DNA of 64,000 bases from Candidatus Pollutiaquabacter sp. (GTDB lineage: Bacteria; Bacteroidota; Bacteroidia; AKYH767-A; 2013-40CM-41-45), in NCBI GenBank assembly GCA_947465495.1, contig CANIAS010000003.1, forward strand, positions 1 through 64,000, in the 5' to 3' direction. Positions 6,723 through 12,021 of this stretch are shown piece after piece. Below the pieces are notes generated by a model that saw only the letters and a program-made list of their open reading frames with translations, was not told the DNA's origin and searched no databases. The translations under genes and the position numbers were made by a program. Position 1 is the stretch's first letter, and each line of letters begins with the position of its first letter.

Positions 6723-7301
6723 TCAATTCCAGCGGAAACTCTCGATGAGTTGACGTAGATCGTCTTCGATAAATGCCTGGACGGGAGCGATGGAGTCCGG
6801 GTTAGGTACCGCATAAAAATAAAGTGAAGCTCGCACGAAGTGGCGAGTGCTATCGGTTAGCCAGAACTGCATCGGCGATGCGGAACTACCTTTCAGTTTG
6901 TAATTCAGCCCATAGACGTCGTTCTCACTATTTACAAATTGAGACTCGTCAATGGCGCTGGCTTTGGCGGTATGCTTCATGGCTAACGAACGGCAGTCGT
7001 CAATCAATTGAGGTAAATCGTTGTTTACATCCTTATAACTCAGATACAATGTCCCTTTGAAATCAGGGAACTCGATGTTCATCCAACATTTTGCCGCATC
7101 AGCACTATCTTGAACAACCGTAGCGTAAGTTGGAATATCAAAGTGAAATGGACATCCGTTTGGTTGATAGGAGGTGTAACTCTTTTTCGGTAGCGTGATT
7201 CGGAAATAGCCGCGAGGTTTAGGGGCCAACGGCTCATCACATGACGTGATCATTACCAGCAGCAACAAAAAGGTGAGAGGGAGTAACTTTACCAGGTTCA
7301 T
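6723..7301 (-). CDS. gldD: Gliding motility lipoprotein GldD
   Basis: Lipoprotein signal MITSC; PKPRGYFRITLPKKSYTSY; length and linkage to gldE. Confidence 0.9.
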   Translation of the reverse strand: MNLVKLLPLTFLLLLVMITSCDEPLAPKPRGYFRITLPKKSYTSYQPNGCPFHFDIPTYATVVQDSADAAKCWMNIEFPDFKGTLYLSYKDVNNDLPQLIDDCRSLAMKHTAKASAIDESQFVNSENDVYGLNYKLKGSSASPMQFWLTDSTRHFVRASLYFYAVPNPDSIAPVQAFIEDDLRQLIESFRWN

Positions 7302-8668
7302 GATTCGTTCGTTAATCCTTCCTGTTTCGGCATAGAGACCTTTACGCGTTTGATGCGCCGCTTATCGGCTGATTCCACGGTAAAGGTGATTCCATGGTAA
7401 TGAATCACTTCGTTGAGTCGCGGAATTCCGCCTTTGATTTCCAATAATAGTCCGGCCAGTGTGTCCGCTTCTTCATTGTCGATATCGAAAACTTTTCGGT
7501 CTACTTCCAATACCCGGCAGATGTCGTTCAACAAGGTTTTGCCCTCGAAAACCACGGTGTTAGCATCCAATCGGGAATAAAATAATTCTTCGTCATCGAA
7601 TTCATCGTTGATCTCACCTACGATTTCCTCCAAGATATCTTCGAGTGTGACAATGCCAGAGGAGCCGCCGTACTCATCGACAACAATGGCAAGGTGCATC
7701 TTGCGATCCTGGAATTCCTGGAGCAGGTCGTTGATCTTCTTGCTTTCGGGAACAAAATAGGCAGGACGAAGCAATTTCAGCCAGTCGAAGTCATGTTGTT
7801 CTTTTTGATTGAGATAGGGAAGAAGGTCTTTGATGTAAAGGATTCCAAGAACAGTATCGAACGTGTCTTCGCAGACTGGAATTCGGGAGTATCTGTTCTC
7901 CAAAATGGATGGAATAATTTCGGAAAATGTCATTGACTTCTCGAAGGATACTACATCCAGTCGTTGTCGCATAATTTGTTTCACATCAATGTTGCCGAAA
8001 CGTGCGATTCCTTTTAGGATCTTCTTTTCCTCTTCCGGTGTGTTTTTGTCGGAGGTGATATCGATTGCATGCGTGAGATCATCCACGGACACTTCATATC
8101 CTTTTTGTCCCATGCGCTTATCAACGATGGCAGTGCTTGCTACTAGCAAAGCGCTCAATGGGCGAAAGAGTTTATCGAGTGCAAAAATTGGGAAGGCGCT
8201 AAATGTAGCGAAACTGACCGCTTTTTGGGTTGCATAAACTTTTGGCATTACTTCGCAGAATAGTACGATAACAAATGTCACCGCTACAACTTGGATGAAA
8301 AAACCGAGCATATGGTTTTTGCTAAAGTCGAATACGTCATTGATCATGACACTGGATACTACGACGATAGCGATGTTGATAAAATTGATGCCAATCAGCA
8401 GTGTTGCAATGAGTCGCTTAGGCATCGTCAGCAAGTGGTAGACTGTTCGTTGCGAAGCAAGTTTAGAGTCTTTCAGCGGCAATAACTGAGAAGGAGTGAT
8501 GGCGAAGAAGGCGGTTTCGGATCCCGATATAAATCCCGAAAGAAATAACAACGTTAATAGCACTACTCCTTTCACCACGAAACCAACGGTGATAGCAAAG
8601 TCAGGTTTGACCACAGAAATACTGTCGATCAAAAGGAGGTGGCAGAAGGAGGTTGAACCGGGGTCCAA
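7298..8668 (-). CDS. gldE: Gliding motility-associated protein GldE (CNNM/CBS/CorC-HlyC family)
   Basis: SGFISGSETAFFAI transmembrane domain, CBS pair, VVDEYGGSSGIVTLEDILEEIVGEI; overlaps gldD by 4 nt. Confidence 0.9.
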   Translation of the reverse strand: MDPGSTSFCHLLLIDSISVVKPDFAITVGFVVKGVVLLTLLFLSGFISGSETAFFAITPSQLLPLKDSKLASQRTVYHLLTMPKRLIATLLIGINFINIAIVVVSSVMINDVFDFSKNHMLGFFIQVVAVTFVIVLFCEVMPKVYATQKAVSFATFSAFPIFALDKLFRPLSALLVASTAIVDKRMGQKGYEVSVDDLTHAIDITSDKNTPEEEKKILKGIARFGNIDVKQIMRQRLDVVSFEKSMTFSEIIPSILENRYSRIPVCEDTFDTVLGILYIKDLLPYLNQKEQHDFDWLKLLRPAYFVPESKKINDLLQEFQDRKMHLAIVVDEYGGSSGIVTLEDILEEIVGEINDEFDDEELFYSRLDANTVVFEGKTLLNDICRVLEVDRKVFDIDNEEADTLAGLLLEIKGGIPRLNEVIHYHGITFTVESADKRRIKRVKVSMPKQEGLTNES

Positions 8669-8739
8669 GGAGTCGTTGATCCTAAAAAATAGTAGCGCAA
8701 AGTTACTAAAACTTCGCGCTACTTGGATGACTGAAATTC

Positions 8740-9153
8740 TTAGAAGGGAAGATCGTCGGTGGTTGCGATAGCAACCGATGGCACTGGTTGACTGTCGCTA
8801 ATCGCTGCCGGAGAGGCACCATCGTTTGGCTTTCCCAATAACGTCATGCTTTCCGCCACAATTTCCGTGAAATACTTCTTGACGTTGTTCTCTTCATAAC
8901 TGCGCGTGCGTATGCGCCCCTCAATATAGAGCTGCTTTCCTTTATGGACGTATTTTTCGGCTATTTCAGCTAATCCACGCCACAAGACAATGTTATGCCA
9001 TTCTGTTTGCTCGACACGCTGCCCCTCACGATTCTTGTATACCTCCGAGGTTGCCAAGGGGAATTTAGCGATCGCCACTCCTCCTTCAAGATACTTCACT
9101 TCCGGGTCTTTCCCTACGTTACCGACCAGGATCACTTTGTTTACTCCACTCAT
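8740..9153 (-). CDS. ssb: Single-stranded DNA-binding protein
   Basis: MSGVNKVILVGNVGKDPEVKYL...WHNIVLWRGLAEIAEKYVHKGKQLYIEGRIRTRSYE; acidic C-terminal tip DDLPF. Confidence 0.96.
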   Translation of the reverse strand: MSGVNKVILVGNVGKDPEVKYLEGGVAIAKFPLATSEVYKNREGQRVEQTEWHNIVLWRGLAEIAEKYVHKGKQLYIEGRIRTRSYEENNVKKYFTEIVAESMTLLGKPNDGASPAAISDSQPVPSVAIATTDDLPF

Positions 9154-9339: not shown

Positions 9340-10491
9340 ATGCCTTCCACCAACAAAGTAGTAGTTTCTGGATGTTTTGACCTACTGCATAGTGGTCATG
9401 TTGCTTTCCTCAAAGAAGCCGCCAATTTTGGAGATCTTCACGTATGTATCGGTTCAGACAAGACTGTTCTGCAGTTAAAAGGTCGACCGCCTATAAACTC
9501 TCAGCAAGAGCGAAAATTCATGGTGGAGTCCCTGAAATTTGTCACGGATTGCAGAATCAATACAGGAAGTGGTATACTTGATTTTGAAGATGAATTAAAA
9601 GAAATCAAGCCTGATGTATTTGTGGTAAACGAAGATGGCCACACGCCTAAAAAAGAGCAGCTTTGTAAAACTCTTGGGATCGAGTATAAAGTGCTGAAGC
9701 GTATGCCATCGGAAGGACTTCCGGTGCGCTCAACCACCTCGTTACGGTCGTTAAGTACCATACCTTATCGTATCGATTTGGCTGGAGGTTGGCTGGATCA
9801 ACCGTTTGTATCAAGCCATGCATCAGGACCTGTCATCACCATCTCCATCGAGCCGACAGTTGAGTTCAATGATCGAAGTGGCATGGCCAGTAGTTCACGG
9901 AATAAAGCCATTGAACTTTGGAAGACAACATTGCCGGAGGAGTTTCCGCAGCATAACGCACGCATACTTTTTAGTTTTGAAAACCCTCCTGGTACACAAG
10001 AAGTAAGTGGTTCGCAGGATGCACTTGGTATATGTTTACCCGGACTCAATCAATTGTATTATCAAGGACAATATTGGCCAGAGAACATCATTTCGGTGCA
10101 CGATGAGTCGGTATTGTCTTGGTTGGAGCAACATCTTTTTCTTGTTTCACTCGGACCACGGAAGAATGGATACAAGGTGTTGGAGGACACCCGTATTTCG
10201 TCTGAACAGGCGAAGGCATTGTCGAATCACGCCACTGCTTGCTGGGAGGCGATTCTTCAAAAAGATCTTGAAGCTGCTGGTCGTCATCTTACAGGTTCCT
10301 TCCTAGCTCAAAGAAGTATGTTTCCGCTCATGGCCGACCAAGAGCTGATTGATTTTATCCAACCGTATACGGACCAGGCAGTTGGTTATAAATTGTCTGG
10401 CGCAGGTGGAGGCGGATATCTCATACTATTATCCGAAAAGTCCATTGAACCTGCACTTCAAATCCGGATACGACGGAAAAACTGGATTTAA
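9340..10491 (+). CDS. Fused RfaE/TagD-like cytidylyltransferase and C-terminal GHMP-kinase-like domain
   Basis: N-terminus VVVSGCFDLLHSGHVAFL (HxGH) and LPVRSTTSLR; C-terminus PYRIDLAGGWLDQP and YKLSGAGGGGYLILL. Confidence 0.85.
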   Translation: MPSTNKVVVSGCFDLLHSGHVAFLKEAANFGDLHVCIGSDKTVLQLKGRPPINSQQERKFMVESLKFVTDCRINTGSGILDFEDELKEIKPDVFVVNEDGHTPKKEQLCKTLGIEYKVLKRMPSEGLPVRSTTSLRSLSTIPYRIDLAGGWLDQPFVSSHASGPVITISIEPTVEFNDRSGMASSSRNKAIELWKTTLPEEFPQHNARILFSFENPPGTQEVSGSQDALGICLPGLNQLYYQGQYWPENIISVHDESVLSWLEQHLFLVSLGPRKNGYKVLEDTRISSEQAKALSNHATACWEAILQKDLEAAGRHLTGSFLAQRSMFPLMADQELIDFIQPYTDQAVGYKLSGAGGGGYLILLSEKSIEPALQIRIRRKNWI

Positions 10492-10507
10492 AACTGTTGT
10501 TACTGCC

Positions 10508-11683
10508 ATGGAAACGATTCGAAAAAATGGAATGCTTATTCCTTTGGTGTTAATCATCAGTCTTTTTTTTCTCTGGGGGCTTTCTTATGGATTATTGGAT
10601 GTGCTGAACAAACATTTTCAGGAGTCACTTCACATTTCTAAAAGTCGTTCGGGCTTGTTGCAAGCTGCCTATTTTGGCGCCTATTTTATCATGGCATTAC
10701 CTGCTGGGCGTTTCATGCAACGTAACGGCTATAAGCGCGCTATCTTACTGGGACTTTTAGTATATGCCTTGGGGGCTTGCCTGTTTTATCCAGCAGCGGG
10801 CGCCCGTAGTTTTACATTCTTTTTAGTTGCGTTGTTTGTATTAGCCAGCGGTTTGGCTTTCTTGGAGACTGCTGCTAATCCCTTCATGACCATTTTAGGG
10901 AATCCCGAGCAAGCGGCTTTTCGTCTGAATTTGGCGCAGAGTTTCAATGGAGTTGGCTCTTTCATCGGGCCTGTTATAGGAGGCGCGATTTTTTTTGGCG
11001 CAGCCACGATGAATGTTCAATGGGTGTATTTTGCAATCGCTGCCATGGTAATAGTGGTGGCAGTATTAATCCGAATTACAGAAATGCCGGAGCCGTTGCT
11101 GGAGAAAAAAGATTCTTCCATTACGTTGACCGAAGTTTGGAATTCTTCTGCAGTTTTTCGGAATGCGGTCGTTGCTCAGTTTTTTTATGTGGCTGCTCAA
11201 GTTGGGGTGGCCGCCTATTTTATCAATTATTGTACGGAGAAAGGACTTGGAATCAGCAATTCGGACGCAGCGTATTATTTATCCCTTGCCATGGTATTGT
11301 TTACCGTTGGTCGATTCACCGGTTCAGCGATTTTAAAACGAGTTGAACCAAACCGTTTGTTAGGCACTTATGCATTGGTTAATATTTTGCTCTGTGTTGT
11401 GGTGATGATAAGTTCCGGGATGGTTGGAATATGGGCCTTGATAATAATGTTCTTTTTCGAGTCGATTTTATTCCCAACAATATTTGCCATTGGGATTCGT
11501 GGTCTTGGCGATAAGACGAAACTTGCATCTTCCTTAATGGTCATGTCGATTGTTGGTGGCGCCATTGTTCCATACTTTATGGGCTGGGTGGCTGATCACT
11601 ACACTACGGCCATGTCTTATTCAATTCCGCTTGCTTGCTTTTTGGTGGTCAGTTGGTTTGGTTTCAAAGGAGCTCGACCATGA
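10508..11683 (+). CDS. MFS sugar permease, L-fucose:H+ symporter (FucP) family
   Basis: LFFLWGLSYGLLDVLNKHFQESLHISKSRSGLLQAAYFGAYFIMALPAGRFMQRNGYKR; ETAANPFMTILG; NLAQSFNGVGSFIGPVIGG. Confidence 0.88.
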   Translation: METIRKNGMLIPLVLIISLFFLWGLSYGLLDVLNKHFQESLHISKSRSGLLQAAYFGAYFIMALPAGRFMQRNGYKRAILLGLLVYALGACLFYPAAGARSFTFFLVALFVLASGLAFLETAANPFMTILGNPEQAAFRLNLAQSFNGVGSFIGPVIGGAIFFGAATMNVQWVYFAIAAMVIVVAVLIRITEMPEPLLEKKDSSITLTEVWNSSAVFRNAVVAQFFYVAAQVGVAAYFINYCTEKGLGISNSDAAYYLSLAMVLFTVGRFTGSAILKRVEPNRLLGTYALVNILLCVVVMISSGMVGIWALIIMFFFESILFPTIFAIGIRGLGDKTKLASSLMVMSIVGGAIVPYFMGWVADHYTTAMSYSIPLACFLVVSWFGFKGARP

Positions 11684-12021
11684 ACTCACGTTACTATTTT
11701 GCGTTAGATTTAAAGGACGACCCTGCATTGATTGCTGAGTACGAATCACATCATCGTGCCGTATGGCCCGAAGTCATAGCAGCCATCCGCGATTCAGGCA
11801 TTGTGGACATGCAGATTTTCCGTGTCAGAAATCGGTTGTTTATGGCCATGGAGGTAAATGAAAATTTCAATCCTGCGACCAAGGCCGCCGCGGATGCCGT
11901 AAATTCTGCGGTGCAGGCCTGGGAAGATCTAATGTGGAAATTCCAACAACCACTACCAGGATCAAAACCGGGTGCGAAGTGGATTCCGATGGACATAATA
12001 TTTGATCTTAAAGATTGCTGA
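11680..12021 (+). CDS. L-rhamnose/L-fucose mutarotase family protein
   Basis: YYFALDLKDDPALIAEYESHHRAVWPEVIAAIRDSGIVDMQIFRVRNRLFMAMEV; ATGA overlap with the permease stop codon. Confidence 0.87.
   Translation: MNSRYYFALDLKDDPALIAEYESHHRAVWPEVIAAIRDSGIVDMQIFRVRNRLFMAMEVNENFNPATKAAADAVNSAVQAWEDLMWKFQQPLPGSKPGAKWIPMDIIFDLKDC

Follow-up and report, generated by a model that had tools for sequence, protein, structure and literature searches.

A conserved, predicted fucose-salvage cassette encoding a fused nucleotidylyltransferase and compact GHMP-kinase-like protein

A real and conserved three-gene cassette, with a predicted role in fucose salvage, is present in the window (the whole stretch of 64,000 nucleotides that was analysed), which comes from a freshwater-type Bacteroidota genome. 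We consider it probable that the fused protein encoded by its first gene is a bifunctional L-fucokinase/L-fucose-1-phosphate nucleotidylyltransferase of L-fucose salvage, most likely yielding GDP-L-fucose. The wider fused family looks like an independent solution to fucose salvage that is present in at least four phyla and combines a different nucleotidylyltransferase (NT) fold with a minimal kinase.

The cassette and the two domains of the fused protein

The three open reading frames are laid out as the first-pass annotation had described them, with a 16-nt gap after position 10491 before the fucP start (ATG 10508) and the mutarotase ATG at 11680 overlapping the FucP stop as ATGA (Table 1). 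The permease annotated as FucP type exceeds the cut-off of TIGR00885. The mutarotase had been offered as RhaM or FucU type and is of the RhaM type, the FucU half of that label falling away; against the narrower rhamnose equivalog YiiL_rotase (TIGR02625) it scores 27.3 bits, below the cut-off of 99.6. The fused protein is below the cut-off of every named NCBIfam family, including rfaE domain II (TIGR02199; 60.5 of 181.5 bits), which is the best named match of its NT domain, and the Fkp family of bifunctional fucokinase/GFPP enzymes (NF009948; 46 of 721 bits).

Table 1. Features of the cassette (positions in the window)
Feature	Position	Strand	Basis
Fused NT + compact GHMP (fucokinase-like) protein	9340..10491	+	383 aa from ATG 9340
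N-terminal HIGH-superfamily nucleotidylyltransferase domain	9352..9747	+	PF01467 45.1 bits, cut-off 21
HSGH catalytic motif, H17-H20	9388..9399	+	H17 and H20 each in at least 39/41 aligned relatives
RSTTS motif, residues 130-134	9727..9741	+	R130 40/41, S131 39/41
C-terminal compact GHMP domain	9757..10488	+	~240 aa vs 361 aa in the corresponding Fkp stretch
Sugar-binding motif R144-W151-x-D153 (Fkp R592, W599, D601)	9769..9798	+	Alignment to 5YYS; invariant 41/41
Probable glycine-rich phosphate loop R179-SGMASS-S186 (Fkp GSGLGTSS)	9874..9897	+	Inferred; G181, S185 invariant 41/41
GSQD, catalytic Asp D227 (Fkp G759, Q761, D762)	10009..10020	+	Fkp alignment; 41/41
GAGGGG, third GHMP motif (Fkp GAGGGG, A900 region)	10399..10416	+	Fkp alignment
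FucP-type L-fucose:H+ symporter	10508..11683	+	TIGR00885 330 bits, cut-off 280.4
RhaM-type deoxy-sugar mutarotase	11680..12021	+	PF05336 103.7 bits, cut-off 23.4

The N-terminal domain had been described as an RfaE/TagD-like NT with HSGH and RSTTS motifs, and PF01467 bears this out. Its active-site motifs are intact, HSGH, K47, E57-R58 and RSTT being conserved in the alignment of relatives. It resembles HldE domain II more closely than TagD, which is consistent with a sugar-1-phosphate substrate of the kind used by the HldE/RfaE heptose-1-phosphate adenylyltransferases (TIGR02199). In HldE, a PfkB-type kinase stands N-terminal to the NT; the window protein differs in that the partner of its NT is GHMP-like.

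The GHMP-kinase-like domain seen at first pass is sub-threshold in Pfam (PF08544 GHMP_kinases_C, 16.5 bits, below the cut-off of 21) and is backed by profile and fold similarity. Foldseek placed a structure model of medium confidence (pLDDT 79, with a loop stretch below 50) in the GHMP fold with a probability of 1.00 and an E-value of 2e-8, matching many GHMP kinases, and the family profile matched the Fkp kinase 9IIP at both ends (5.5e-14) and the heptose kinase 3K85 at 5.4e-6. R144, W151, D153, S185, Q226 and D227 are invariant in 41/41 aligned sequences, residue E214 is always E or D, and the spacing of R144, W151 and D153 is identical to that of their Fkp equivalents. Among the Fkp residues, W599 provides the stacking contact with fucose, D601 and Q761 are hydroxyl-binding, and R592 lies close to O1; the ATP phosphates are bound by loop 712-720 and the metal by S719, with D762 serving as the base (PMC11982464).

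Like Fkp of Bacteroides fragilis (5YYS, 9IIP, 9IIT), the window protein carries a nucleotidyl domain N-terminal to a GHMP domain, and it keeps the fucose-contacting and catalytic residues of the Fkp kinase (R592, W599, D601, S719, Q761, D762). It differs in that its NT is a HIGH-superfamily domain, whereas that of Fkp is a beta-helix pyrophosphorylase (PF07959, fucose pyrophosphorylase) that is absent from the fused protein. The earlier description of an enzyme that resembles Fkp in logic and has a different nucleotidyltransferase fold is thus upheld, and the fused enzyme probably works like Fkp from outside the Fkp family. It is also far smaller, with 383 aa against ~950 and a kinase domain reduced by ~120 aa, most of the difference lying ahead of the glycine loop. 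The stretch from D153 to this loop is ~87 residues shorter than in Fkp, and the missing region presumably helps to bind the ATP base in the longer enzyme.

The probable loop of the family reads SG[ML][AS][ST]S, compared with the GHMP consensus PxxxGLGSS, and precedes the catalytic Asp by the distance expected. Because of the deletion, it is misplaced in global HMM and MAFFT alignments with Fkp; our assignment rests on its spacing to the catalytic Asp, which is nearly that of Fkp, and on intermediates of the L112 type (see below), in which GAGLGGSG aligns with SGMASS. The same two observations led us to reject a loss of the glycine loop from the short kinase domain. From the Fkp profile match, the Foldseek placement, the invariant Fkp-equivalent residues and the related loop, the GHMP domain is likely to be a working but pared-down kinase.

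Gene neighbourhoods and distribution of the fused family

Neighbours within ~3 kb of the fused gene were counted for the first 17 loci, and 12/17 had a fucose-linked gene, with no clear fucose gene nearby in the other five (5/17). FucP is a neighbour in six loci (window, L036, L043, L045, L046, L053) and RhaM likewise in six (window, L043, L045, L053, L055, L056). GH29 alpha-L-fucosidase genes adjoin three copies (L037, where the gene overlaps the fused gene, L043 and L046), and GH95 and an L-fucose isomerase occur in L056 and L042 respectively. The gmd and fcl genes encode the makers of GDP-fucose by the de novo route; gmd is a neighbour in three loci, alone in L041 and with a true fcl in L054 and L055. 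Among Verrucomicrobiota copies, gmd/fcl are found at L118 and L120 and an L-fucose isomerase at L119. The substrate, given at first pass as a fucose-like or heptose-like sugar, is narrowed to L-fucose by the fucosidases, L-fucose isomerase, gmd and fcl that lie nearby.

Co-occurrence in other genomes, on which the first-pass annotation had staked its reading, is found: elsewhere the fused gene stands next to FucP, RhaM or both, and in Bacteroidota four separate loci (the window, L043, L045 and L053) bring all three components together. In L043 a single 600-aa open frame (7003-8802) encodes RhaM-NT-GHMP, with genes for FucP and a GH29 fucosidase after it, so that the mutarotase is tied to the NT-GHMP enzyme. 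The four separate loci and the invariant active-site residues in ~40 relatives argue that the three-gene association is not due to chance. An NAD-dependent epimerase/reductase recurs beside the enzyme (L056:7332-8333, L106-L111) and may act on its product; the L056 protein is related to GDP-fucose synthase, far below its cut-off.

Among carrier genomes, gmd is present in 8/8 from the Bacteroidota, compared with 160/248 in the phylum background, and is over the cut-off in 5/8 other carriers. The Fkp pyrophosphorylase domain was over its cut-off in 0/8 Bacteroidota carriers; Fkp is in any case uncommon in the sample of the phylum (2/248), so its absence from the carriers is weak evidence. The first-pass annotation had called for a search of the window's own genome for fcl and fkp: PF07959 was not found, and fcl lies adjacent to gmd on another contig (L066, G000:C44, 2437-4531), in a cluster of genes that resemble those for surface polysaccharide biosynthesis and export. 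One of the cluster's genes encodes a chain-length protein that resembles tyrosine kinases and has a long tail of GY repeats. The genome also encodes two GH29 fucosidases. Together with gmd/fcl in a polysaccharide-like cluster, these make it plausible that this organism has access to free fucose and can put it to use. A search of the genome for GT10/GT11 fucosyltransferases gave no match, and control genomes were also without a match in the same search.

Relatives of the fused protein occur in Bacteroidota, Chloroflexota, Ignavibacteriota and Verrucomicrobiota/Lentisphaerae, with 43-75% identity to the window protein (median 52%) among those aligned; the named-genome scan returned copies from Bacteroidetes, from Anaerolinea, from one further bin of Chloroflexi, one of Ignavibacteriae and one of Lentisphaerae, and from an uncultured bacterium. 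Full-length relatives are rare in Bacteroidota, at 4/99 relatives besides the window genome (a count that takes in G031, matched in the GHMP part only) and 3/395 phylum-sample genomes, whereas matches came from 59/388 genomes of the phylum to which the Lentisphaerae genome belongs. This patchy spread suggests dissemination of the fused family by horizontal transfer. A split form exists in Verrucomicrobiota (L106-L111): GHMP and NT are encoded by adjacent genes next to the NAD-dependent epimerase, and NT is present as two tandem copies, of which the first is without HxGH where read (L106, L109, L110). Elsewhere, L047:9983-10726 encodes a GHMP part without the NT part and has a stop inside the frame in the genome search; it may be a decayed copy. 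In both Anaerolinea copies (L038:11232-12272, L040:11163-12203) a Gfo/Idh/MocA oxidoreductase comes next, in the place of fucose transport genes.

Proposed pathway and alternative explanations

In the pathway that we infer, including both activities of the fused enzyme and its sugar, anomer and nucleotide, FucP would import free L-fucose and the RhaM-type protein would speed alpha/beta interconversion, making beta-L-fucose available. The compact GHMP domain would phosphorylate beta-L-fucose at C1 with ATP, D227 acting as general base and S185 lying near the metal, and the HIGH-superfamily NT would exchange the phosphate for an NMP to give an NDP-L-fucose, most likely GDP-L-fucose, which could join the de novo Gmd/Fcl pool and feed surface glycans. 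The salvage route by import, anomer conversion and activation envisaged at first pass is thus an interpretation that the domains and the fucose-linked neighbours support. As to the nucleotide, we know of no HIGH-superfamily enzyme that uses GTP, and the closest named NT is an ATP-using heptose enzyme, a point against the GDP-fucose reading. Known fucosyltransferases use GDP-fucose according to an evolutionary survey of salvage enzymes (PMC12732313), and GDP-fucose is therefore the most economical guess for the product. It is possible, if rather doubtful, that the NT makes ADP-, CDP- or UDP-L-fucose, which would constitute a second, separate fucose donor pool for unrecognised fucosyltransferases.

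One alternative explanation is that the fused protein is an L-fucose-1-phosphate nucleotidylyltransferase only, its GHMP-like domain binding the sugar and a separate enzyme making fucose-1-phosphate. The kinase reading does have points against it, as the GHMP part does not reach the Pfam cut-off, ~87 residues are missing and the altered glycine loop reads SGMASS compared with SGLGTSS; NT and GHMP are, moreover, separate genes in some Verrucomicrobiota, and the explanation is close to the published reading of Amuc_1591 as a nucleotidyltransferase with a sugar-binding C-terminal domain (PMC13313206). We nevertheless regard it as improbable, given that three residues, the catalytic Asp, the Ser at the metal site and the Arg close to O1, do not vary across 41 sequences and that no separate fucokinase family recurs beside the fused gene among the neighbours annotated.

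It is very unlikely that the fused protein activates heptose or another sugar in the manner of HddA/HldE. The best named NT match is indeed rfaE domain II, the top Foldseek matches of the kinase part include the heptose kinases WcbL and 3K85, and the HddA/WcbL-type kinases (3K85, 4USK) share with it the GHMP fold, the QD pair and the glycine-rich C-terminal motif. However, their kinase domain is longer and the sequence profile is nearer to Fkp than to 3K85 and its kind; the profile and the neighbouring fucose genes led us to set a heptose substrate aside, and W151, the equivalent of the fucose-stacking W599 of Fkp, is invariant. Fucosidases and an L-fucose isomerase adjoin some copies, and L056 combines a LacI-type regulator with GH95, as might be expected if the cassette were catabolic and fucose-1-phosphate or NDP-fucose a degradation intermediate. 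We give this explanation scarcely any weight: gmd/fcl and polysaccharide genes adjoin other copies, a nucleotidylyltransferase step would be wasteful in catabolism, and neither an aldolase nor a fuculokinase was seen among the neighbours annotated.

Relation to Amuc_1591 and to known fucose salvage

The evolutionary survey of FUK, GFPP and Fkp ascribes published fucose salvage to GDP-fucose to a single pair of families, FUK and GFPP, with Fkp regarded as the product of one fusion between them; neither its section on diversity nor a term search of its text showed a mention of a HIGH-type NT joined to a GHMP domain (PMC12732313). No paper on a FucP-RhaM cassette was found in the open-licence PMC literature; nor does that literature, as searched, appear to describe the three-gene set, the broader family with its fused and split versions, or the argument for a kinase step. 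If confirmed, the activity that we propose for the fused enzyme would fill a pathway gap in genomes without Fkp, provide a small catalyst for costly GDP-fucose and show how small a GHMP kinase can become. It would also help to explain the D-arabinose phenotype of Akkermansia.

According to a June 2026 report, Akkermansia muciniphila mutants resistant to D-arabinose are all hit in Amuc_1591, L-fucose relieves D-arabinose toxicity, and Amuc_1591, a putative fucose-nucleotidyltransferase, has an N-terminal adenylyl/cytidylyltransferase and a C-terminal fucokinase-like domain (PMC13313206). By this description, Amuc_1591 has the same domain order as the window protein, and the NT-fucokinase-like architecture is therefore not wholly new. 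By analogy, the Akkermansia phenotype supports fucose/D-arabinose as a substrate for the wider family. The published V176/G326 numbering of Amuc_1591 is fitted only by an L112-type relative, which is thus a candidate counterpart; murJ, sought as a neighbour that would pin the counterpart down, was not found among the ORFs scanned. The candidate differs from the window protein in being 29% identical to it over residues 6-178 and in its loop, GAGLGGSG. Proteins of this divergent NT-GHMP type are encoded in Verrucomicrobiota at L112:4987-6570, L113 and L115, each with a separate NT gene directly after, the product of which in L112 is 53% identical to the window NT.
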